Below, piece by piece: positions 7,706 to 16,008 of a DNA stretch of 21,820 nucleotides. How positions within the stretch are numbered: the stretch's first letter is position 1; every line of letters starts with the position of its first letter. The stretch lies in the IMG/VR virus record IMGVR_UViG_3300011253_001092, positions 1 through 21,820 of that record; one strand, given 5' to 3'. This stretch comes from a virus. The position numbers and the translations under genes were made by a program. Under the pieces are notes generated by a model. The model was not told the DNA's origin and did no database searches. It saw only the letters and a program-made list of their open reading frames with translations.

Positions 7706-7925
7706 GGTTCAACAGCGTTCGCTCGATGCGCTCAAGCTGCGCGAACGTATCGCCCTGGTCGTGATACTTGGTGATCGTCTGCTCTGCAGCATCAATAGCC
7801 GCACGTCGCGATTTTTCGGCCTGCTCAGACAGCACATTGAGCATATTGGTCGTTCGCTGGTTGCGCGCTTCCGTTTCCCTGCGTTCGATGAAGATCGAAA
7901 ACGGCCAGACCTGGGCCAGATTCAT
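7692..7925 (-). CDS. Small coiled-coil protein of the lysis cassette
   Basis: This 77-residue protein starts at an ATGA junction with the upstream gene and overlaps the holin candidate by 14 bases. After a short hydrophobic start (NLAQVWPFSIFI) it is highly charged and helical (ERRETEARNQRTT, SEQAEKSRRAAIDAAEQ, QLERIERTLLNHD). It could be membrane-anchored at the N-terminus with a coiled coil, but there is no full transmembrane segment. Function is unknown; its place between two membrane-type small genes suggests a lysis-associated role. Confidence 0.55.
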   Translation of the reverse strand: MNLAQVWPFSIFIERRETEARNQRTTNMLNVLSEQAEKSRRAAIDAAEQTITKYHDQGDTFAQLERIERTLLNHDKG

Positions 7926-8206
7926 TCCAAACCGTCCCGGCGTCGTATCAGCGACAGCACTGGTTCAACCCGGTCTATCGTGGCCGATACCCGGTCAAGA
8001 ACGAGATTCTGCAGGGCCATCGCGCTGGTGGTTTTTGCCGCCTGCTCAGCCTGATTAGCCAGCGCTTGGGCATAAGCATCGCCGCGTGAATCCGCCAAAT
8101 TTTGCGCTGTATCAGCACGCTTGTCGGCCTTCCACCAACCGTAGGCGCAGATCCCGGTCGACACTCCAACCTTTAGCAATTCGCCGATCAGTTCGAGTTC
8201 GCCCAT
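7922..8206 (-). CDS. Small protein with N-terminal hydrophobic segment, lysis cassette
   Basis: This 94-residue protein is the first of the lysis cassette. It has an exact AGGAGG ribosome site four bases before its ATG, the strongest in the cassette. Residues about 8-25 (GELLKVGVSTGICAYGWW) form a short hydrophobic segment. The rest is an alanine- and glutamine-rich helix (LADSRGDAYAQALANQAEQAAKTTSAMALQ), then an RRR-containing tail. It could be an accessory holin or a cell-envelope protein; no family is recognised. The tRNA-Thr gene lies 20 bases upstream on the same strand. Confidence 0.55.
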   Translation of the reverse strand: MGELELIGELLKVGVSTGICAYGWWKADKRADTAQNLADSRGDAYAQALANQAEQAAKTTSAMALQNLVLDRVSATIDRVEPVLSLIRRRDGLE

Positions 8207-8226
8207 TGGGCCTCCTACTAAGGGTT

Positions 8227-8303
8227 TGGAGCCTACGGCGTGGATTCGAACCCGCGACCTGCCCCTTACAAAGGGGCTGCTCTACCGACTGAGCTACGGA
8301 GGC
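8227..8303 (-). tRNA. tRNA-Thr (anticodon UGU)
   Basis: The 77-base gene folds as a tRNA. The acceptor arm is GCCTCCG with CGTAGGC (one C-U mismatch), and the D stem is GCTC/GAGC. The anticodon stem is GCCCC/GGGGC, with loop TTTGTAA giving anticodon UGU (Thr, ACA codons). The T loop is TTCGAAT, and an encoded CCA follows discriminator U. The T stem pairs GCGGG with CCACGC only if one A is bulged, so the structure is slightly degenerate. It lies with tRNA-Met between the Q-like region and the lysis cassette, as in many phages. Confidence 0.85.
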
Positions 8304-8462
8304 AACAAATAATTGACGCTGATGAGCAGTAACCGCAACGCGGCGCTTCTCTAGGCCCGGCGCTCGCGAGTCGCCGCCTTGACCGACATGCCCTGCACCC
8401 TCTCGGCAAGACAAGCTGCTATGTCGTGGTTTCATCCGCCATATAGCGGCGCAGCGTCAAAT
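8304..8462. other. Spacer between the two tRNA genes, no gene seen
   Basis: These 159 bases separate the tRNA genes. A reading frame crosses both tRNA and spacer on the minus strand, but it has no recognisable protein features and no ribosome site. I see no hairpin with a T tract and no repeat. It is probably leader and trailer sequence of the processed tRNA transcript. Confidence 0.4.
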
Positions 8463-8537
8463 TGGTAGCGAGAGCCGGATTCGGACCGGCGACCTGCTGG
8501 TTATGAGCCAGCCGAGCTGCCTCTGCTCTACCTCGCA
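8463..8537 (-). tRNA. tRNA-Met-type (anticodon CAU)
   Basis: The 75-base gene has acceptor strands TGCGAGG and TCTCGCT, which pair at positions 2-71 to 7-66 (last pair G-U) but leave a U-U mismatch at 1-72. The D stem is GAGC/GCTC. The anticodon stem is GCTGG/CCAGC with loop CTCATAA (anticodon CAU). The T stem is GCCGG/CCGGC with loop TCCGAAT, and CCA is encoded after discriminator A. An unpaired 1-72 position is a feature of bacterial initiator tRNA, but the anticodon stem lacks the three G-C pairs of initiators. It may serve as elongator Met, or as Ile if the C34 is lysidine-modified. T-loop position 55 is C, not U. Confidence 0.8.
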
Positions 8538-8575
8538 ATAATTTTTATTTAAGCCCTAACCCAAGGCCAAAATAA

Positions 8576-8603
8576 AAAGCCCCGCCATTGATGGAGGGGC
8601 TTT
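8576..8603 (-). terminator. Rho-independent terminator after the secreted-protein gene
   Basis: An eight-base perfect stem, AAAGCCCC with GGGGCTTT, surrounds a 12-base loop. On the minus strand it is followed by a T-rich tract (TTTTTATTTT). It lies 20 bases after the stop of the small secreted protein and before tRNA-Met, so it would block minus-strand transcription into the tRNA and lysis genes unless an antiterminator acts. Confidence 0.8.
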
Positions 8604-8622
8604 GCGATGCCTGCTGATAATG

Positions 8623-8916
8623 TCAGCTAGGCGGCGCGCGTATCGGCAGACCGTCGGTATCTATAGCGACTACTCGGCAGACCCACTCGACCTGTGGTCG
8701 TTGGCCTGCTGTCGGCTGTGTGCTTCGGATCTTATTGGGGTGTGGGGTGCTGGGTGTTGCTGCGGTGTCGTTGGTTGCAGGCACAGTGGCCGCGATGCTG
8801 TCAGCGCGCAGATCAATCTGTTCGGCAGACTGTTCAAACGCATCAAACGCAAAAGCGGGTTGGCCGACAACAAACAGCACCACCAGCACTAACAAGTGCA
8901 GGGTTAATTTGTACAT
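8623..8916 (-). CDS. Small secreted protein of unknown function
   Basis: This 97-residue protein has a clear signal peptide: MYKLTLHLLVLVVLFVVGQ, then PAFAF, with likely cleavage after AFA near residue 23. The mature part is short, with a low-complexity Thr/Pro/Ala linker (ATVPATNDTAATPSTPHP) and one cysteine. The ATG has a GAGGA ribosome site seven bases upstream. A terminator hairpin lies only about 18 bases upstream of the start and another follows the stop, so expression probably depends on antitermination or readthrough. It may be an envelope-acting phage protein; no family is recognised. Confidence 0.65.
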   Translation of the reverse strand: MYKLTLHLLVLVVLFVVGQPAFAFDAFEQSAEQIDLRADSIAATVPATNDTAATPSTPHPNKIRSTQPTAGQRPQVEWVCRVVAIDTDGLPIRAPPS

Positions 8917-8933
8917 TTTGGAGTCCTCAAGGC

Positions 8934-8960
8934 ATAAAAAAACCCAGCGGGCGCCGGGTT
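8934..8960 (-). terminator. Rho-independent terminator downstream of the Q-like gene
   Basis: AACCC at 8941-8945 pairs with GGGTT at 8956-8960, with extra G-C pairing inside, and the minus strand continues into a seven-T run. It lies about 45 bases after the Q-like stop and just before the secreted-protein ribosome site. This position matches the early terminator that late-gene antiterminators overcome in lambdoid phages. Confidence 0.75.
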
Positions 8961-8982
8961 GTGGTATCTCTCGGGCGAGGAT

Positions 8983-9009
8983 GCCCTAGTGTGGGGTGCA
9001 TCCTGTCAA
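8983..9009 (-). promoter_or_regulatory. Candidate late promoter at the end of the Q-like gene
   Basis: The minus strand carries an exact TTGACA at 9004-9009, overlapping the TGA stop of the Q-like gene. A weak -10 candidate, TAGGGC, lies at 8983-8988 with a 15-base spacer. The terminator hairpin follows about 25-40 bases downstream. Poor -10 boxes are usual for late promoters that need a pausing and antitermination factor, but this weak match could also be chance. Confidence 0.35.
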
Positions 9010-9809
9010 GCTTCGGGGTACGTGTCAAGCAGCTTCTCGATCATCGTGTTGAGTTCGGCCTGAGTGGTTTTTGGCGCAAGAATATGCAGGCCGCGCTCGC
9101 CGGGGATGCTGTCGATGTATTCGCCAACAATTGGGAGCTGCTTTGCGGCGTCGACGGTGTCTTTCAATACCGGCGACAAACTGCCCTGCTTGCATTTGGT
9201 TAGCACGCGGCGCAAGTGCGTCGTCAACGCAAATGAATCACGGCTTGATATCTTGCCGGCCACACGCCGCACGCCAATTTCCTCCCACCGATATAGCGTC
9301 TTGAGCCGGCCAAGGTAGTAGCGCTCTGCTGGCCCGCGTCGATAGGTCTCATAAGGCAACCCACACGATCGCGCCCGCGCAGCGGCGGACAGCTGCTTGT
9401 GGCCCGTGCCGTCGCAGGTGTCGCAGGACTCGACCCGGGCATCAACCAGGCAAGTGCCGCGCCCCTCACACACGCCGCATGCGCTGGTGCTCAAAAATTC
9501 CAGCATCGCTTGGCGGCTTACCGTGAAGTGGGCGACCTGGGCTTCCCAATCCTTGCCCATACACGCATCGTGCACCAGATCGTCCAGCAGCTTGGCGCGA
9601 TCTCTCTCGCCGCCATCCGCATACCTGAGCAATAACACCCGCACCGCACCGTCTGGCAGCGCTTCGTAGTCGTCATTGCCACGCTTTAGCCCCGCCAGCG
9701 CGTGGCCTATTTCTGCGCGGGTGAAACGAGGAACGCCACCACCGCCCGCATCATCAAGTCCGCAAGTGCCAGCCGTGGCCAGTGCTAAGGATTCCGCTGC
9801 TGTCGACAT
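9006..9809 (-). CDS. Q-like late antiterminator candidate with DnaJ-type zinc motifs
   Basis: This 267-residue protein has two CxxCxGxG units at 111-118 (CGVCEGRG) and 129-136 (CDTCDGTG). These form one zinc site of the kind found in DnaJ and in the phage-82 type Q antiterminators. A helical region follows, with ETYRRGPAERYYLGRLKTLYRWEEI at about 154-178 that could be a DNA-binding helix pair. It is the last gene of the replication operon and is followed by a TTGACA box, a terminator, tRNAs and lysis genes, exactly where Q genes sit. The start ATG touches the TAA of the RRM gene. Family membership is inferred from context and the zinc motif; another regulatory zinc protein is possible. Confidence 0.5.
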   Translation of the reverse strand: MSTAAESLALATAGTCGLDDAGGGGVPRFTRAEIGHALAGLKRGNDDYEALPDGAVRVLLLRYADGGERDRAKLLDDLVHDACMGKDWEAQVAHFTVSRQAMLEFLSTSACGVCEGRGTCLVDARVESCDTCDGTGHKQLSAAARARSCGLPYETYRRGPAERYYLGRLKTLYRWEEIGVRRVAGKISSRDSFALTTHLRRVLTKCKQGSLSPVLKDTVDAAKQLPIVGEYIDSIPGERGLHILAPKTTQAELNTMIEKLLDTYPEA

Positions 9810-10079
9810 TTACTGCCCTCGCTTGTAGTCATTGCCTCGCGACCGAGCCTGATTTACCCGCAACCCCTGCCGGCCCCTAAACTCAGTGCCGTTTAGCGCC
9901 TGGATGGCTAAGCGGGCTTGATCGTCGTTCGGCATGGTGACGAAGCCGAAGCCCTTGTCGCGGCCGGTCGTCTTGTCCGTCACCAGGCGGCAACGCTCGA
10001 CCGTGCCGTACTTCTCGAACGCTTCTGTAACTTCGTGGACCGTAGACCCAAACGGGTAATTAGCGACAAAAATATCCAT
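9810..10079 (-). CDS. RRM-domain RNA-binding protein
   Basis: This 89-residue protein is a single RNA recognition motif. RNP2 is IFVANY at 3-8, RNP1 is KGFGFVTM at 42-49, and FEKYGTVERCRLVTDKTTGR, AIQALNGTEF and LRVNQARSR fall in canonical order. The exposed RNP1 aromatics F44 and F46 and the RNP2 F4 are kept, so single-stranded RNA binding is expected. The chosen ATG at 10077-10079 starts two bases after the TGA of the HNH gene and exactly at the domain edge; an upstream start at 10124 would add 15 unrelated residues. The TAA touches the ATG of the Q-like gene. RRM proteins occur in cyanobacteria and some other bacteria but are unusual in phages. Confidence 0.9.
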   Translation of the reverse strand: MDIFVANYPFGSTVHEVTEAFEKYGTVERCRLVTDKTTGRDKGFGFVTMPNDDQARLAIQALNGTEFRGRQGLRVNQARSRGNDYKRGQ

Positions 10080-10081
10080 AA

Positions 10082-10528
10082 TCAGGCGACGTGCGCCCTG
10101 CCCTCCTTCCAAAGTTGCAGCCAAACTTCATCCGTTACCGTGTGCGGATAAGCGACCGTGGTTTCTGAACTGAATGGGTACACGCGCGGCGCATTGAGTG
10201 CTGACCATTCCTCAACATCTAAAACCGGCAGCACCACCTCGCCGCTGCCGTATACCCACATAAACGTTAGATCGATGCCGTTGCGCCACAACGTGTGTGC
10301 GGCGGCCTTGTCTAAATTCTTACCGTTGTCGATCTCGTGGTGGCAGGTGTTACACCCTGCAGCGACGAAACAATCGTGCGCCTTCATCGATAAGCCTTTG
10401 CCGTGGATCAGCTGGTTGCTGTGGCATGGCACAGCCGGCATACCCTCGCACCCAATACCGCGCAGGAAGCATGGCAGCGTGTGCATCAGGTCGAGCAGCT
10501 TTCGATCTCGGTGGATGTTGCGCTTCAT
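10082..10528 (-). CDS. YbcO-type HNH nuclease (DUF1364-like)
   Basis: This 148-residue protein matches the YbcO/DUF1364 phage nuclease pattern. Cysteines lie at 20, 27 and 35, then CHSNQLIHGKGLSMKAHD (35-52), then CNTCHHEID at 59-67, giving a CxxC-H zinc and metal site of HNH type. E. coli YbcO is a prophage single-strand-preferring nuclease of about 96 residues; this protein has an extra C-terminal part of about 60 residues (VVLPVLDVEEWSALN and beyond) without recognised motifs. The start is an ATGA overlap with the DUF1064 gene. Role: probably recombination or DNA processing during replication. Confidence 0.75.
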   Translation of the reverse strand: MKRNIHRDRKLLDLMHTLPCFLRGIGCEGMPAVPCHSNQLIHGKGLSMKAHDCFVAAGCNTCHHEIDNGKNLDKAAAHTLWRNGIDLTFMWVYGSGEVVLPVLDVEEWSALNAPRVYPFSSETTVAYPHTVTDEVWLQLWKEGRAHVA

Positions 10529-10947
10529 TTGCCGCCCACCAAGGTCACATTGATCCCGTGATATAGCTCAGCCGCCTTGCGGCGCAGTTTACTCGAGGTG
10601 TCGCTATGTTTGCGGCTGCCCTTGTAGTCCTCGATGACGTGCTCCCCTGTGTCGGTTATGTCGTATTCGAAGTCCGGCACGTAGGTGCAAAACAATTTGC
10701 CGTTAATGTGTATGCGGTATCGCGTTTGCAGCGCTAGGTTTGAAATCACCGCCGCGAGCTCCATTCGTTTGAGTTGCAAAAATCGCTTGTATTCGCCGGT
10801 GCTGGGGAAATAGTGAGGCTTATTGCCGCACACCACATGGTCGCCGCGCGGCACCGCATAATTGCAATTCATGCAGTAGTAGACTGATTTGCGCTGCATG
10901 GCGCCGGCATGCCTTCCGGCCATGTTGTTCCGAGGGTGCCGCCACAC
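10525..10947 (-). CDS. DUF1064 phage nuclease
   Basis: From GTG at 10945-10947 the protein is 140 residues. The core matches the DUF1064 family of phage endonuclease-like proteins: FPSTGEYKRFLQLKRMELA, ISNLALQTRYRI, YVPDFEYDI, then VIEDYKGSR, then LRRKAAELYHGINVTLV. The E...PDF...ExK series looks like a PD-(D/E)XK active site. A short CMNC...C zinc-like knuckle precedes it. GTG overlaps the TAG of the upstream gene by one base and has GGTGG eight bases before it; ATG at 10923 or 10899 are alternatives. The frame stays open up to 11148, but that part overlaps another gene. Likely role: DNA junction or flap processing in the replication operon. Confidence 0.75.
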   Translation of the reverse strand: MWRHPRNNMAGRHAGAMQRKSVYYCMNCNYAVPRGDHVVCGNKPHYFPSTGEYKRFLQLKRMELAAVISNLALQTRYRIHINGKLFCTYVPDFEYDITDTGEHVIEDYKGSRKHSDTSSKLRRKAAELYHGINVTLVGGK

Positions 10948-11309
10948 TATCCGCCACCTTCCCGAAACGCCCATACCGGCGACTCGTGGCCTTTGTTGGT
11001 TACAAGCGTTGATTTCCTGCGGCCTATTTTTGCCCAGCATTTGCCGCGAAATACTGCGCCCCATGCGTTGCTGCTCTCGGGCCTGATGCCACGGGACAAT
11101 GCGAATCGGCGCAGGTCGTCGATGTGAACTTCGCCATTCACCGCGCAAAAGCGGCGGGCCTGGCCGCGCATGAGTTCAACAAATTCTTTGTTGTTGGTTT
11201 CAACCAAGTGCAGCCCCTCTTCGCGCTTTTTCTTTGCGCGTACCGGATCGAAGTGAGCCCGAACCGCTTCCGGTGTTGGTGGGGTATCGAATAGCTGTAG
11301 CTGGCTCAA
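10947..11309 (-). CDS. Conserved phage protein of the replication operon, function unknown
   Basis: From TTG at 11307-11309 this is a 120-residue protein (MSQLQLFDTPP...). The TTG overlaps the TGA of the upstream microprotein gene as TTGA, and AGGG precedes it. The core FVELMRGQARRFCAVNGEVHIDDLRRFALSRGI, NAWGAVFRGKCWAKIGRRKS and PVWAFRE is a pattern I associate with uncharacterised phage proteins next to DUF1064 and replication genes. The helix pattern in the middle suggests a winged-helix or HTH domain. The open frame extends upstream to 11453, but that part is the shadow of the microprotein gene. Confidence 0.65.
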   Translation of the reverse strand: MSQLQLFDTPPTPEAVRAHFDPVRAKKKREEGLHLVETNNKEFVELMRGQARRFCAVNGEVHIDDLRRFALSRGIRPESSNAWGAVFRGKCWAKIGRRKSTLVTNKGHESPVWAFREGGG

Positions 11310-11464
11310 GCCCTGACGCCCTCGCCACGCTCTGATGGTGGCCACTTGATGTACCCGCCCATGCGCCGGCATTTCTGGCAGCGCTTGTGGCGGTCTTTGA
11401 TGTTGATGGGCTGCCCACAGTCGGTGCAGGGCTTTTCCCAACCTGGTTCGCAATCACGCGGCAT
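11306..11464 (-). CDS. Zinc-ribbon microprotein, 52 residues
   Basis: ATG at 11462-11464 overlaps the stop of the ParB-like gene as ATGA, with GAGGT six bases upstream. The peptide has CTDC at 13-16 and CQKC at 29-32, a treble-clef or zinc-ribbon-like pair, followed by basic residues (RRMGGYIKWPP). It ends in a TTGA overlap with the next gene. Coupling on both sides, a good ribosome site and the metal site support a real gene although it is very short. Role unknown; possibly a nucleic-acid-binding adaptor. Confidence 0.7.
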   Translation of the reverse strand: MPRDCEPGWEKPCTDCGQPINIKDRHKRCQKCRRMGGYIKWPPSERGEGVRA

Positions 11465-12333
11465 CAAATTACCTCAATCCAGCCATCCGACGGACGAATC
11501 GCGATTGATGTTTTAGTGATGCGCTTCTTTTTAACCAGCGCTGCCCAGCCTTTGATGACCATTCGGGCCTTAACGTGTATAGGCCACCTCACCTGGCGCT
11601 GCATGTCGCGAAAAAACGCTTGCCTGAGCATGTATTCGATGTCGGTGGTTTTTAAATCTTCGCCGGTGTAAAACCGACGCATAAAAACCTCTGCCGCACG
11701 ACTGTGTTTTTTGTCGATCTGAAACCAAATCGCCGCCGTGCATGCCACCGAAAGCGGCCTGGCATCTTTACACCACGCCGCCAACGTTTCGCAGAACTTA
11801 AAAACCCCAGGGTTCGCCAGGGAGTAATTTAAAATCTCGGTGTTCGACACCCGCGTGTTAGGCATGAAGGTTTTGGACTCGAGTAAAATGCAATATCTGC
11901 AAGCGGTAGCCGCGTCCTTGGCTAGACCGGCCGTTATTTTTGGGTAATTCAACGCAATGACATCGGACCCGGTTCGCGGCTTGCCTGTATCAATTGTCTT
12001 GAACGCCTCCGCTGCGACGCCATAAATCACCAAAGCCTCAATCGCGATCCCCGCCTCAATACAGGCCATGAGCCTGTGCTGCCCGTCGAGCACGTCATCG
12101 TCGTTGGCGATAATGATCGGCTGCCCGTTGAACACCCAATCGCCAGCGGCGATCTGCTTGGCTAGAAAATTTACGTGTGACTTGGAAACCGGGCGATTGT
12201 GGCGGTTGTGCTTCAACCATCCGCTTGCATCTTGCGGCGTTATTTTCATTTGCTCGACGACAACGTCGCCGCCGACTATTTCTGTCGGGTTTTTGAATGG
12301 AATTATTTTTGCTTGAGATACTACTTTTGACAT
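11464..12333 (-). CDS. ParB-like domain protein
   Basis: This 289-residue protein has an N-terminal ParB/Srx-like fold with VVVEQMKITPQDASGWL, SHVNFLAKQIAAGDWVFNGQPI and the key DGQHRLMA motif at 83-90, in the family position for nucleotide binding. The remaining 190 residues are helical (LAKDAATACRYCILLES, DIEYMLRQAFFRDMQRQ) and match no partition domain I know. Phages often carry such proteins in replication operons; functions range from CTPase DNA clamps to ParB-type nucleases and regulators. There is no ParA partner nearby, so plasmid-type partition is unlikely here. ATG at 12331-12333 overlaps the preceding small gene by 13 bases. Confidence 0.7.
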   Translation of the reverse strand: MSKVVSQAKIIPFKNPTEIVGGDVVVEQMKITPQDASGWLKHNRHNRPVSKSHVNFLAKQIAAGDWVFNGQPIIIANDDDVLDGQHRLMACIEAGIAIEALVIYGVAAEAFKTIDTGKPRTGSDVIALNYPKITAGLAKDAATACRYCILLESKTFMPNTRVSNTEILNYSLANPGVFKFCETLAAWCKDARPLSVACTAAIWFQIDKKHSRAAEVFMRRFYTGEDLKTTDIEYMLRQAFFRDMQRQVRWPIHVKARMVIKGWAALVKKKRITKTSIAIRPSDGWIEVI

Positions 12334-12497
12334 ATATCGCCCCTTAAATGATCAATCGCCGCACGCAGCTCGGCCTGGCCGTCGTCGCCATACCGCCGCC
12401 CCACGAGATACCAAACCAGATCGCGTTGGGTTTGGGTGGGTTGGTCGCGCCACAACCGGAGTCGTTCGCTGGGTTGTGATAGGTCATAGACCGGCAC
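12321..12497 (-). CDS. Small phage protein of unknown function
   Basis: A 58-residue protein from GTG at 12495-12497, one base after the TGA of the cupin-like gene; a TTG at 12518 would give 65 residues. The sequence PSERLRLWRDQPTQTQRDLVWYLVGRRYGDDGQAELRAAIDHLR is mostly helical and charged and could be a small adaptor. A GGTAGGGG tract lies about 10 bases before the GTG. It overlaps the ParB-like start. I recognise no family. Confidence 0.5.
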   Translation of the reverse strand: MPVYDLSQPSERLRLWRDQPTQTQRDLVWYLVGRRYGDDGQAELRAAIDHLRGDICQK

Positions 12498-12498
12498 T

Positions 12499-12999
12499 TC
12501 ATGCGCAACCCCTACCAATCTCGCCTGGGTTGTCTTTCGCTACGAAGTCCCGGTAATAGCGCCAACCTTGTGGGCAGTAAAAGCCCCACTTGCGCACCAC
12601 CGGGCCGGTGATGAATAAAGTAATTACTGGCGTATGCGGGCGGCTGCTGATGTCCAGCACTTCCAGCCGATGTGCCGTTTTTGCCCTGCGGAATATCAGG
12701 TCGCCCGGGCTTCTGATCCGGTTTTCTAACGAGCAGACTTCCGGCCACTGCTCCGGGTATCGGAACGATATTTCGTTGTAGTGGCCCTGCAGCATCAGCG
12801 TCATGGATGGCCAGGGGTGGTCGTGCAATGCGCGGTCGTCGTCGTCTTTGCTGATCCGGTGCAGGTAAAGGTTGAATAGCGGATTGCGTGGTATCAGCCA
12901 CCAGCGTTCGAGATACGGATCATTCGGATCACCGACAACGAAGTCCGGGGCGCGCTTGGTGGGCACGCTTAACAGCCAGGCCTTGATCCGCTTTAGCAT
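12499..12999 (-). CDS. Cupin-like phage protein
   Basis: From ATG at 12997-12999, which overlaps the stop of the P-like gene by seven bases, the protein is 166 residues. DDDDRALHDHPWPSMTLMLQGHYNE at about 52-76 has the HxH pair (H59, H61) of a cupin metal site, followed by a GDLIFRRAKTAHRLEV strand with a third histidine and a final GPVVRKWGF strand. N-terminal PDFVVGDPNDPYLERWWLIPRN is shared with many uncharacterised phage cupins. The family can bind Fe, Mn or Zn, but no substrate is known. A GTG at 13029 would add ten residues. Confidence 0.7.
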   Translation of the reverse strand: MLKRIKAWLLSVPTKRAPDFVVGDPNDPYLERWWLIPRNPLFNLYLHRISKDDDDRALHDHPWPSMTLMLQGHYNEISFRYPEQWPEVCSLENRIRSPGDLIFRRAKTAHRLEVLDISSRPHTPVITLFITGPVVRKWGFYCPQGWRYYRDFVAKDNPGEIGRGCA

Positions 13000-13469
13000 T
13001 TGGATGCCGCCCCAAGTTTTGACTTGCACGCCGCGATCAACTCACTGCACCGCAGCTTTTGCTCGTCAGTGCTTTTCTGCGTCAAGTGACGTTCTGGCGG
13101 TACCAGCGGGATCACGTACATGCTCGCAAACGGGCGTGTTTCAACCGGTCGGCATAGCTGCTTAAACTGCGACAGGTTTGGCGGGAAATCCCTATGCCAA
13201 CGGAGGCACGCCTCAAGACCTCTGGCGATCTCTTGCTCGCTGTAGCCGCGAAGTCCGCGCGCCCAAGTGCCGTCGTCAGCAACCCCGAACTGGCGCGTAA
13301 ACGAATAGCCGAACATTTTCGCCAGGCGTTTCCATGCACGCGGAATTCGAGTGGCCTCGGTGCCGCCATCAGAACTGATCTCCGGCTTCAAGGTTGGACT
13401 GCACTGGGTTCGCGGCCTCGACTCGATCTGCCTCTGTGCGTCCGCCACTGCTTCCTGAACGCTTTTCAT
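12993..13469 (-). CDS. Replication protein P-like / helicase-loader candidate
   Basis: This 158-residue protein starts with ATG at 13467-13469 behind a strong GAGGGG at six bases, although this lies 101 bases inside the preceding DUF1376 gene. Conserved-looking blocks are WKRLAKMFGYSFTRQFG, TWARGLRGYSEQEIARGLEACLRWHRDFPPNLSQFKQLC, the pattern found in phage P-like proteins downstream of replication initiators. Lambda P loads DnaB helicase on the O-bound origin; by position and motif the same role is proposed here. The protein is shorter than lambda P (233 residues) and the DnaB-binding part is not identifiable by eye. Confidence 0.6.
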   Translation of the reverse strand: MKSVQEAVADAQRQIESRPRTQCSPTLKPEISSDGGTEATRIPRAWKRLAKMFGYSFTRQFGVADDGTWARGLRGYSEQEIARGLEACLRWHRDFPPNLSQFKQLCRPVETRPFASMYVIPLVPPERHLTQKSTDEQKLRCSELIAACKSKLGAASKC

Positions 13470-14118
13470 CGTCTGCCCCCTCGCATGCGGCTTTCAGCCA
13501 GCTTTTCGGATTTATTTTGGTCGGGCCGTCGAGCAGTGCCTTGCACTTCGCCCCAACGATGTCATCGCCGTGGCGCTTTGCCAGGCCGGCCAGGAATTGC
13601 TGGGCGTGCATCTTCGACATTCGGTTCGCAACGCAGATCACCAGCAGGGTTTGTTCCCATAATTCGCTTGCAGCCAAAGATGCTGCTTTAGCAGTATCTT
13701 TAGGTGGTATGTGGTCATGCGATCCCATATGGGAGTCGCTGCTTTGTCCCTTTTGGGATCCCATGTGGGATGAGGTTTTGCCCCACCGTTTCGCGTTACC
13801 CAACGCGCTCGCTTTTTTCTTATCTTTTTGAATCGCCGCAGCTTTTTCGAGTTCTTCGTCCATCCTTTTGAGGTGGATTAAGCCCTCCGCCTCCACGAAA
13901 AAAACTGAAAGTTTTTTCCATAATTTCCGCGTTTTTTGCAGCGAAATCCCGAGGTTTTTCTGCAGAAATCTTTCAAAGTTTTCTGCGTTGAACGGTCCGC
14001 CGTTGTCCCAGTACAGGTCCATGATCAGGTTGTATGCGCCGTGTTCCTCGAGCGTGAGTGAGCGGGTATCTCGGGCATAGTCCGCAGGGTGCTTGGCGTA
14101 CCAGGTGCGCTTAGGCAC
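13369..14118 (-). CDS. DUF1376 replication initiator-like protein
   Basis: From GTG at 14116-14118 (AGGA eight bases upstream) this is a 249-residue protein. Residues about 5-100 are a DUF1376 domain: YAKHPADYARDTRSLTLEEHGAYNLIMDLYWDNGGPF, then FLQKNLGISLQKTRKLWKKLSVFF. This winged-helix DNA-binding module is found in phage proteins at the lambda O position. A low-complexity linker (about 115-140, with SHMGS repeated) leads to a C-terminal part with NPKSWLKAACEGA. The linker DNA holds TCCC-N4-GGGA iterons and the upstream part is T/A-rich, as in lambda O with its internal origin. The next gene overlaps its 3' end by 101 bases. Confidence 0.75.
   Translation of the reverse strand: MPKRTWYAKHPADYARDTRSLTLEEHGAYNLIMDLYWDNGGPFNAENFERFLQKNLGISLQKTRKLWKKLSVFFVEAEGLIHLKRMDEELEKAAAIQKDKKKASALGNAKRWGKTSSHMGSQKGQSSDSHMGSHDHIPPKDTAKAASLAASELWEQTLLVICVANRMSKMHAQQFLAGLAKRHGDDIVGAKCKALLDGPTKINPKSWLKAACEGADDEKRSGSSGGRTEADRVEAANPVQSNLEAGDQF
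13723..13770. repeat. Three TCCC-N4-GGGA iterons, probable replication origin
   Basis: Three 12-base inverted repeats lie at 13723-13734 (TCCCATATGGGA), 13747-13758 (TCCCTTTTGGGA) and 13759-13770 (TCCCATGTGGGA). Start spacings are 24 and 12 bases. They sit in the linker of the DUF1376 gene. About 130-220 bases away on one side (13895-13990) the sequence is dominated by A and T runs, including an inverted repeat at 13897-13918. This is the layout of a lambda-type origin: iterons inside the initiator gene next to an AT-rich unwinding region. Confidence 0.6.
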
Positions 14119-14242
14119 ACCGGCGTTCCTGATCTAAAAAGGTGGCGCGGGCTGCGGATTGATGCAGCGACACGAATGCGGGAGGTCTCGAACTGGCAAC
14201 GGTGTCGGGGAGCAACACCGTCCGTGCCTCGGTCCGCGCCAT
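14111..14242 (-). CDS. Possible 43-residue protein, unknown
   Basis: ATG at 14240-14242 opens a 43-codon frame that ends in an eight-base overlap with the DUF1376 GTG start. The product (MARTEARTVLLPDTVASS, then FVSLHQSAARATFLDQERR) has no motif I know. No clear ribosome site precedes it. The overlap with the next start favours a coupled leader gene, but chance is not excluded. Confidence 0.35.
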   Translation of the reverse strand: MARTEARTVLLPDTVASSRPPAFVSLHQSAARATFLDQERRCA

Positions 14243-14256
14243 AGTTAATTCGGTGG

Positions 14257-14394
14257 CTACCATATGTCGTCGTCTTTCATCCACGCGAAGCCGCAGATCG
14301 CCGCGGTGACGAGGCAGGCCACGCCGATCACAACGGCGCCTATGCAGAGCAGCATCGTGCAAACAACACCGGTAAAAAAGGAAGGCCAGAACAT
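14257..14394 (-). CDS. Small membrane protein, 45 residues
   Basis: ATG at 14392-14394 overlaps the stop of the upstream gene as ATGA. The product begins MFWPSFFTGVVCTMLL and continues through a hydrophobic stretch of about 35 residues (CIGAVVIGVACLVTAAICGF) to a short charged end (WMKDDDIW). It should cross the membrane once or twice. Early-region phage membrane microproteins often modify the host envelope or exclude other phages; no family is recognised. Confidence 0.6.
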   Translation of the reverse strand: MFWPSFFTGVVCTMLLCIGAVVIGVACLVTAAICGFAWMKDDDIW

Positions 14395-14588
14395 CAGCTG
14401 ACACCCCCCGGCGCAGTGCTCTCCCTGCGGCTGATTTCCAGCAATAGGCGACCTATCAGAGCGGCGATAAAGGCTTCTTTGTCGTTCGACGTGTGGTACT
14501 GAGTTACCAGGCGATTCGCCGTATAGCTGTCGCGCGCTGCCAAAATCTCATCTATTCTTTGGCCCTGCATCAATAAGGGATTAGCCAT
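14394..14588 (-). CDS. Small early protein, unknown
   Basis: From ATG at 14586-14588 the protein is 64 residues: MANPLLMQGQRIDEILAARD, then YHTSNDKEAFIAALIGRLLLEISRRE. It looks like an all-helical protein. GGAGGG lies five bases before the start, inside the coding region of the divergent DUF4145 gene. The start codon shares two bases with the ATG of that gene (CATG). It ends in an ATGA overlap with the small membrane protein. No family is recognised. Confidence 0.6.
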   Translation of the reverse strand: MANPLLMQGQRIDEILAARDSYTANRLVTQYHTSNDKEAFIAALIGRLLLEISRRESTAPGGVS

Positions 14589-15237
14589 GCCAACCCTCCA
14601 ACGCACCTGCCCGCATTGCGGGGGTGAACGTCAAATATTTGGATTCGCTACGGAGTGGGCTCACCCCGTCACCGATAATTACGGTAGACCTATCTACGAA
14701 GCCATATTCCGCTGCCACCATTGCTCTGGGGCTTATGCGGTGACCGTAAGCGTCGCTAATTCCACTCATCGCCCGAGCCAAATTGACATGCCGCTCGATA
14801 AAGATAGTGACACTCGGATCGTCAGCGAATATCCGCAAATAAAAGCGCTCGACGCTCCGAGCAACTGCCCTGATAACGTCGCTAGGATTTTTATCGAGGC
14901 TCAAGACAACGCTAGACGAAGCAACTGGGACTCGGCAGGGATGGGTGCACGCAGGACGCTGGAACTCGCCACCCGCAAACTGCGCGAGGGCGACAAGAAA
15001 TTCGCCGATGAAACCTTGTGGAAGCGGATAGATATTCTGGCAAGCGACCACGACATTACGCCGGCGATGCGAGAATGGGCCGACGCAATTCGCCTTGATG
15101 GAAATGAGGCGAACCACGACGACGACGCGTTTGATGAGAACAAAGCTAAAGCCTTGATCTCCTTCACGGAAACCTTTCTGCTCTACGCGTTCACCCTGCC
15201 CGCCATGGTCGAAGCCCGGAAACCTGAGCCGGAATAA
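14587..15237 (+). CDS. DUF4145 protein with N-terminal zinc ribbon (moron)
   Basis: This 216-residue protein has CPHC at 8-11 and CHHC at 43-46 forming a zinc ribbon. A helical DUF4145 domain follows at about 95-205 (IFIEAQDNARRSNWDSAGMGARRTLELATRKL, then RIDILASDHDITPAMREWADAIRLDGNEANHD). DUF4145 is found alone and in restriction or defence proteins; its molecular role is unclear. The gene runs against the surrounding minus-strand operon, with AAGGGA six bases before its ATG. Its stop lies two bases from the stop of the convergent CII-like gene. This inverted single-gene insertion looks like a moron, possibly expressed from the lysogen. No clear promoter or terminator is seen. Confidence 0.75.
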   Translation: MPTLQRTCPHCGGERQIFGFATEWAHPVTDNYGRPIYEAIFRCHHCSGAYAVTVSVANSTHRPSQIDMPLDKDSDTRIVSEYPQIKALDAPSNCPDNVARIFIEAQDNARRSNWDSAGMGARRTLELATRKLREGDKKFADETLWKRIDILASDHDITPAMREWADAIRLDGNEANHDDDAFDENKAKALISFTETFLLYAFTLPAMVEARKPEPE

Positions 15238-15239
15238 GG

Positions 15240-15608
15240 TCATTCGGGCAACCTCGACATCTGCTCGGCCAGGGCCAGCACTTCGCCGCGCATGCTTTGC
15301 CATTTCTCACAGAGCGTTGCCTGCTTCTGTTCTTTGGTGATCGGCTTGATGTCGTAGTCGAGCGACTGGCCGAAGTATTCAGCCATGATGTGAATGCCCT
15401 TCTCCCGGGCCATCCGGCAGATAAAAAACAATTCATCAAGCGCGAGCTTTTCTTGACGTTCAGGATCGACGCAGTGAAGCAGTAAGCGCTGGGCATCCTT
15501 TAAGGGTTTGGAGGGCCACAGGCTGCCCGCTACCCGCTTCACGCCCAGCATTTCCAGCGTCGCTCGCAACGCTGCGTGCTCGTCGTCGTAGAACAGTTCA
15601 CCCTGCAT
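15240..15608 (-). CDS. CII-like regulatory protein candidate
   Basis: From ATG at 15606-15608 (GGGGG about nine bases upstream; a TTG at 15614 is an alternative) this is a 122-residue protein. LRATLEMLGVKRVAGSLWPSKPLKDAQRLLLHCVDPERQEKLALDELFFICRMARE resembles helix-turn-helix phage regulators that follow cro, including the CII family with LNPE/QxxxLxxEE-type segments. A basic coiled end follows. The position (cro, terminator, then this gene) is that of cII in lambdoid phages. If it acts like CII, it would activate a promoter for the repressor; the TTGG-N6-TTGG repeat just upstream is a candidate site. The family call is inference from pattern and position. Confidence 0.5.
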   Translation of the reverse strand: MQGELFYDDEHAALRATLEMLGVKRVAGSLWPSKPLKDAQRLLLHCVDPERQEKLALDELFFICRMAREKGIHIMAEYFGQSLDYDIKPITKEQKQATLCEKWQSMRGEVLALAEQMSRLPE

Positions 15609-15627
15609 TACCAACTACCCCCAATGA

Positions 15628-15649
15628 TTGGTAAGCGTTGGTAAACGCT
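15628..15649. promoter_or_regulatory. TTGG-N6-TTGG direct repeat and overlapping palindrome
   Basis: TTGGTAA occurs at 15628-15634 and 15638-15644, exactly ten bases apart on the plus strand, and a complementary TTACCAA lies at 15608-15614. A perfect palindrome AGCGTT-GGTA-AACGCT spans 15634-15649. The site lies just upstream of the CII-like gene, where lambda has its pRE promoter with TTGC-N6-TTGC CII boxes. An activator site for repressor transcription in the plus direction is a plausible reading. Confidence 0.4.
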
Positions 15650-15661
15650 CCTGTGGCCAAA

Positions 15662-15712
15662 TAAAAAACCACCAAGCCAGCACCCTGATACGGGCGTCGC
15701 AGCTGGCTGGTG
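15662..15712 (-). terminator. tR1-like terminator between cro-like and cII-like genes
   Basis: A long hairpin pairs CCAGC at 15677-15681 and its flank with GCTGGCTGGTG at 15702-15712, with one mismatch region and a 20-base loop. On the minus strand it runs into GGTTTTTTATTT. It lies 20 bases after the Cro-like stop. As with lambda tR1, it would limit early transcription of the replication genes unless antiterminated. Confidence 0.7.
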
Positions 15713-15731
15713 TAATGACCTACGGGGGTAG

Positions 15732-15950
15732 TCATGCGGCCTGCCCATAGAAGTAACGGATCAGGTCGTCGCGAGTGAGCGACCCCCCACTCGCTGCCGC
15801 CAAGCCGGCCAAAAGCTTAGGTCTCGGAATTTTGTTAGGCGGGTCGCAAATAAGGTGGCACCGGATGTAACTAACCGTTGTGCCAGCCTTTTTGGCAAAG
15901 TTTGTTTGTTGCCGCGGGTCCAGAGATCTGAAATAGGTTCGTAGGTCCAT
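15732..15950 (-). CDS. cro: Cro-like helix-turn-helix protein
   Basis: This 72-residue protein is divergent from the repressor gene. The sequence LDPRQQTNFAKKAGTTVSYIRCHLICDP at 10-37 has the helix-turn-helix pattern of YdaS/Cro-type phage repressors (QxxFAKxAGTTVSYI as helices 2 and 3). The C-terminal LTRDDLIRYFYGQ probably packs as a dimer element. It would bind the TACC-N5-GGTA operators and turn off the repressor promoter. The ATG is preceded only by a weak AGG eight bases upstream. The predicted promoter -10 box ends six bases before the ATG, so a leaderless or nearly leaderless message is likely. Confidence 0.75.
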   Translation of the reverse strand: MDLRTYFRSLDPRQQTNFAKKAGTTVSYIRCHLICDPPNKIPRPKLLAGLAAASGGSLTRDDLIRYFYGQAA

Positions 15951-15956
15951 GATCGA

Positions 15957-15985
15957 AACCTATACCATAAAGGTAAATCATGCAA
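15957..15985 (-). promoter_or_regulatory. pR-like promoter for the cro-like operon
   Basis: On the minus strand, TTGCAT at 15980-15985 (-35) and TAGGTT at 15957-15962 (-10) are separated by 17 bases. That spacer contains TTACCTTTATGGTA, identical to the spacer core of the promoter at 17056-17084. The match in both spacing and content supports a repressor-controlled early promoter. Confidence 0.6.
15963..15975. promoter_or_regulatory. Operator 1 (TACCATAAAGGTA)
   Basis: A TACC-N5-GGTA inverted repeat lies inside the spacer of the cro-direction promoter. Its 14-base extended form is the exact reverse complement of operator 5 near 17066. Repressor binding here would block RNA polymerase. Confidence 0.7.
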
Positions 15986-15995
15986 GAAAAAATAT

Positions 15996-16008
15996 TACCT
16001 TTTCGCAC
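15996..16008. promoter_or_regulatory. Operator 2, degenerate (TACC half-site)
   Basis: TACCTTTTCGCAC has one perfect half-site and a poor second half (GCAC for GGTA). It lies between operators 1 and 3. It is probably a weak site, or chance. Confidence 0.35.

Follow-up and report, generated by a model that had tools for sequence, protein, structure and literature searches.

Lambdoid phages carry, between their replication genes and the gene for Q, a nin region in which small genes, among them those for HNH and Holliday-junction-resolvase-like nucleases, are tightly packed (ninB-I in lambda; ybcO-rusA-ylcG-quuD in DLP12), and the nin region of lambda includes recombination genes. We know of no case in which an RRM gene occupies such a region. 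The closest described proteins to the one considered here are the bacterial Rbp regulators (NCBIfam model NF058537), which consist of a single RRM in 80-95 aa and include Bacteroides RbpB, Acinetobacter baumannii AB-Elavl (PDB 7qzp) and the protein in PDB 7jly. RbpB is a global RNA binder with a preference for single-stranded regions (PMC11697453). Among phages, ChmC of nucleus-forming jumbo phages is likewise an RNA-binding protein made by a phage and associated with phage mRNA (PMC12908238), although it comes from another phage type with other biology and is likened here by role.

The stretch analysed, called the window below, is a 21.8-kb IMG/VR record (IMGVR_UViG_3300011253_001092, 21,820 nucleotides) encoding repressor and Cro-like genes, replication genes, a spanin and an endolysin. 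From position 8599 onwards the window is 100% identical to an overlapping record, IMGVR_UViG_3300011258_001069, which contributes approximately 20 kb more, encoding integrase, excisionase, TerL, portal, HK97-type capsid, tape measure and a lambda J-type tail fibre. This gene content is that of a temperate lambdoid siphophage. Its TerL is approximately 51% identical to the Pseudomonas phage D3-type TerL, which is a likeness of terminases and not a host assignment. The early operon also includes a cysteine dioxygenase-like gene (12499-13029, minus strand; phrog_4786, E = 3e-53). Around the RRM gene the following features succeed one another on the minus strand in the order given, with the lysis genes after the last of them:

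10525-10917, minus strand: Holliday-junction-resolvase-like/DUF1064 gene, start uncertain (phrog_190, E = 2.1e-12; DUF1064, E = 1.2e-4)
10082-10528, minus strand: HNH endonuclease of the nin region, YbcO/DUF968 type (phrog_131, E = 5.3e-20; DUF968/YbcO match weak)
9810-10079, minus strand: single-RRM protein gene, 89 aa (Pfam RRM_1, NCBIfam NF058537, AlphaFold2 fold)
9006-9809, minus strand: Q-type late antiterminator, 267 aa, with a CxxCxGxG...CxxCxGxG zinc motif and a helical region behind it (homology via L262 and L255, position)
8941-8960, minus strand: intrinsic terminator after Q (terminator scan; fold -12.9 kcal/mol, z -1.9)
8623-8916, minus strand: 97-aa ORF between the two terminators, with a signal-like N-terminus (ORF list)
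8574-8604, minus strand: second terminator-like hairpin, past the 97-aa ORF and ahead of the tRNAs (-20.9 kcal/mol, z -2.8, U-rich tail)
8463-8537, minus strand: tRNA-Met (CAT) (ARAGORN, Rfam)
8227-8303, minus strand: tRNA-Thr (TGT) (ARAGORN, Rfam)

The window thus shares the close-packed small genes and paired nucleases of a lambdoid nin region, and the RRM gene fills one slot of it. The 97-aa ORF gave no convincing family match in Pfam/PHROG-type searches. The two tRNA genes (8227-8537) follow the terminator-like hairpin downstream of Q and precede the lysis genes; tRNA genes after Q occur in some lambdoid phages, and their position here recalls those.

The RRM gene is not a chance ORF. It runs from 10079 to 9810 on the minus strand, from an ATG start to a TAA stop, and an earlier note made from the sequence alone, which had read it as a complete RRM with both RNP motifs, was exact in its coordinates and junctions. 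Pfam RRM_1 (PF00076) matched residues 3-71 with an E-value of 2.4e-19 and a score of 69.4 bits, well above the gathering score of 20.7, and a PDB search returned 235 distinct sequences at E <= 1e-3. Both motifs could be read directly (RNP2, IFVANY; RNP1, KGFGFVTM), with the three key aromatics in place (F in RNP2, two F in RNP1) and the last position of RNP1 alone being non-aromatic (M). An AlphaFold2 model showed the canonical beta-alpha-beta-beta-alpha-beta fold (pLDDT 84.5), and Foldseek matched it to RRM structures with E-values down to 2.8e-9. The protein has a pI of approximately 9.4 and ends in a short, basic, disordered tail.

By family model the closest relatives were the bacterial Rbp regulators (NF058537, E = 2.1e-25). 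The score of 88.8 bits fell below the curated cut-off of 100 bits, and on these model matches the protein is related to the NF058537 family and is not filed as a member. Both RNP motifs and the fold are held in common, PDB chains of this type are approximately 40-50% identical to the window RRM (50% for A. baumannii 7qzp in the Foldseek match), and many and diverse bacterial chromosomal RRMs are approximately 45-53% identical. Unlike the bacterial regulators, the window RRM is phage-encoded in an early operon and has no glycine-rich tail. In a tree of RRMs its branch was long (0.84) and its placement was unsupported, and hence no donor can be named. Only one phage population, consisting of the window and its 100% identical overlapping contig, carries the gene.

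The spacing of the gene was read next to that of its operon. The HNH stop codon (TGA, 10082-10084) is followed by 2 nt and then the RRM ATG, and the RRM TAA (9812-9810) abuts the Q ATG (9809-9807) with 0 nt between. These contacts were as the earlier note had described them. Its further claim, that the RRM and Q genes are translationally joined, stood as to adjacency and not as to joining: between the P-like gene and HNH the remaining called gaps run from -101 to +29 nt (some starts being approximate), so that distances of 0 and 2 nt are nothing unusual in this operon. The TAA/ATG contact probably reflects tight packing of the operon, perhaps with translation of Q coupled to that of the genes that precede it.

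We then examined the identity of the Q-type neighbour. Directly compared with phrog_127, the PHROG Q-like family, the window protein gave a weak match (E = 0.019), mainly across the zinc motif, so that the label was insecure from the window alone. Through relatives, however, the label holds. L262, reached by a profile built with two Q relatives from TerL-related phages, encodes a Q of 177 aa that matched phrog_127 with an E-value of 5.2e-11, and pairwise BLAST linked the window Q to it (E = 6e-12) and to the Q of L255 (E = 6e-11) over the N-terminal part, the zinc motif and the helices behind the motif. Four cysteines (111, 114, 129, 132), forming zinc-binding CxxC pairs, were invariant in four Q homologues. 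Like the PHROG 127 antiterminators, the window Q combines the CxxCxGxG motif with a position ahead of the lysis genes; it lies between these and the early operon, upstream of the tRNAs and with terminators downstream, and in its relatives, too, the surroundings are nin-like, with DUF968 HNH genes or a RusA-like resolvase preceding Q. Because the window Q is homologous to the L262 Q, which itself matches phrog_127, we accept the 9006-9809 product as a divergent Q-type protein and presumed antiterminator, on indirect evidence from homology. Unlike its three relatives, the window Q has a C-terminal extension of approximately 65-85 residues (9006-9260). Its AlphaFold2 model was poor (pLDDT 44), and in GenBank phages no relative of it was found, the L262 Q giving one weak match there. 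A promoter scan of 7900-16000 returned no promoter. A TTGACA hexamer over the Q stop codon (9009-9004, minus strand) was considered as a late promoter and rejected because a good -10 element was absent. Rfam near Q reported only the tRNAs and one match far under its gathering score.

The earlier note had proposed that RRM and Q form a two-part antitermination module, and we asked whether the two genes travel together. In none of three Q relatives was an RRM gene directly upstream of Q; the slot was taken by a VRR-NUC/Holliday-junction-resolvase-like nuclease in L255, a 64-aa ORF in L256 and a RusA-like resolvase in L262. Among 32 TerL-related phage records none gave a PF00076 match, though many are fragments and absence is not proven for each. 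An alignment query against IMG/VR gave 128 RRM loci, 80 of which were fetched with flanks. Within those flanks, no Q-like zinc protein lay near the RRM in any of the 79 contigs other than the window; BLAST among the 80 loci found none besides the window sharing the HNH or Q neighbour, and the double CxxCxGxG motif occurred in the window Q and one DnaJ and nowhere else. Single-sequence scans of viral contigs with RRM, Q and HNH recovered the overlapping contig of the same phage only. These absences are read from fragmentary contigs and with patterns of limited reach. With a variable slot, no co-occurrence and ordinary spacing, the module has little support left at the level of sequence. The earlier note had listed, as a finding that would count against it, RRM genes in relatives lying only far from Q-like genes, and so far as sequence can tell this is the picture obtained. 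Most likely the RRM gene is a passenger at a position where accessory genes are known to sit and not the second half of a late-gene switch.

Genes of this small RNA-binding kind are common in bacteria, and a wider survey agreed with the earlier view that RRMs do not belong to the usual phage gene set. Of 50,697 GenBank phage records, three RRM queries matched only three (two Acinetobacter, one Microcystis), and BFVD fold matches at E <= 1e-3 were to giant viruses throughout. One Acinetobacter record and the Microcystis record were opened and set aside because the surrounding genes looked chromosomal (topA, rep, rpmG, rpmB; zur, mggB); both, CAKLQH020000005.1 ('Acinetobacter phage MD-2021a') and MW495066.1 ('Microcystis phage MaAM05'), are deposited as phages. 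Several of the large IMG/VR RRM contigs may also be bacterial, since few show a detectable terminase. True phage RRMs seem, from these searches, to be absent from GenBank phages yet present in several unrelated contexts in uncultivated phages. One is a P2-like contractile-tail cluster in the order tube FII (PF04985), assembly chaperone, RRM, a further gene, gpD (phrog_52), where the RRMs had a median pN/pS of 0.08 (30 same-length loci). In L018 (4906-8988) and approximately 30-45 similar loci (including L014, L016, L017, L019 and L049), a conserved RRM gene of 93 aa sits between the tail assembly chaperone and a gene of 280-368 aa. An RRM among tail genes is unusual, and this group may prove more rewarding than the nin-region gene. 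Another is a tight operon in L012 (3170-7960) of RecT, a further gene, an exonuclease VIII-like gene, RRM, a 73-aa ORF, a DNA helicase and a VRR-NUC-like gene, where the stop codon of the exonuclease gene and the ATG of the RRM gene overlap. Also conserved is a further group of RRM contigs (L027, L033-L035, L040, L044, L051, L061, L073, L083, L085), with a gp3-like packaging gene (PF16677) and weak matches to terminase near the RRM.

What the RRM does in the window can be proposed from its resemblance to Rbp-type proteins, from the single-stranded RNA binding of RbpB and from the lambda nin genes, all of which are dispensable for plaque formation (PMC10695390). On these grounds we favour, with a probability of about 0.6, an accessory delayed-early nin gene whose RNA-binding product would act on phage or host mRNA independently of Q antitermination. 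The gene lies in the early operon between the recombination nucleases and Q, and its protein would be made from the early transcript along with those of the other nin genes. The beta-sheet would bind short, single-stranded, unstructured and perhaps AU-rich RNA, as AB-Elavl and RbpB do, and binding would alter how phage or host mRNAs are translated or how stable they are at the early-to-late switch, by an action separate from the antitermination mechanism.

The main rival, which we consider unlikely, is that the RRM serves DNA recombination by binding single-stranded DNA or R-loops alongside the nin nucleases. The HNH and Holliday-junction-resolvase-like genes upstream of the window RRM, the place of the L012 RRM between exonuclease and helicase genes in a RecT operon, the nuclease genes adjoining the RRMs of L009 and L054, and a Helicobacter-type RRM in the PDB list named as a single-stranded-DNA-binding protein (2ki2) all point this way. 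However, early phage regions are so rich in nucleases that such neighbours can be expected by chance, the best-matching sequence models describe RNA-binding regulators, and a large group of phage RRMs is located in tail genes. It is also rather improbable that the RRM is aimed mainly at the host, binding host mRNA or sRNA or shielding phage RNA from nucleases or RNA-sensing defence. An accessory nin slot and the bacterial homologues, which are global mRNA/sRNA regulators (PMC11697453), would fit this, but no sequence feature separates host from phage targets, and protection from decay is not the primary role of RbpB according to the same study. We regard as very improbable that the RRM helps Q through terminators by binding RNA polymerase or the late leader RNA as it emerges, and equally so that it is a dedicated partner on the nascent leader on which the divergent, C-terminally extended Q depends: the gene contact and the two terminator-like hairpins downstream of Q and ahead of the lysis genes speak for such a module, but the evidence on co-occurrence and spacing goes against it, as does the fact that, to our knowledge, the Q proteins of lambda, 21 and 82 work without an RRM-type partner.

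In bacteria, proteins with a single RRM are increasingly recognised as post-transcriptional regulators, but in phages they are hardly known. Together with the copies in a recombination operon and in contractile-tail modules, the nin-region RRM suggests that phages have taken up this domain repeatedly, and the targets of phage RRMs would tell whether phages regulate mRNA with them.
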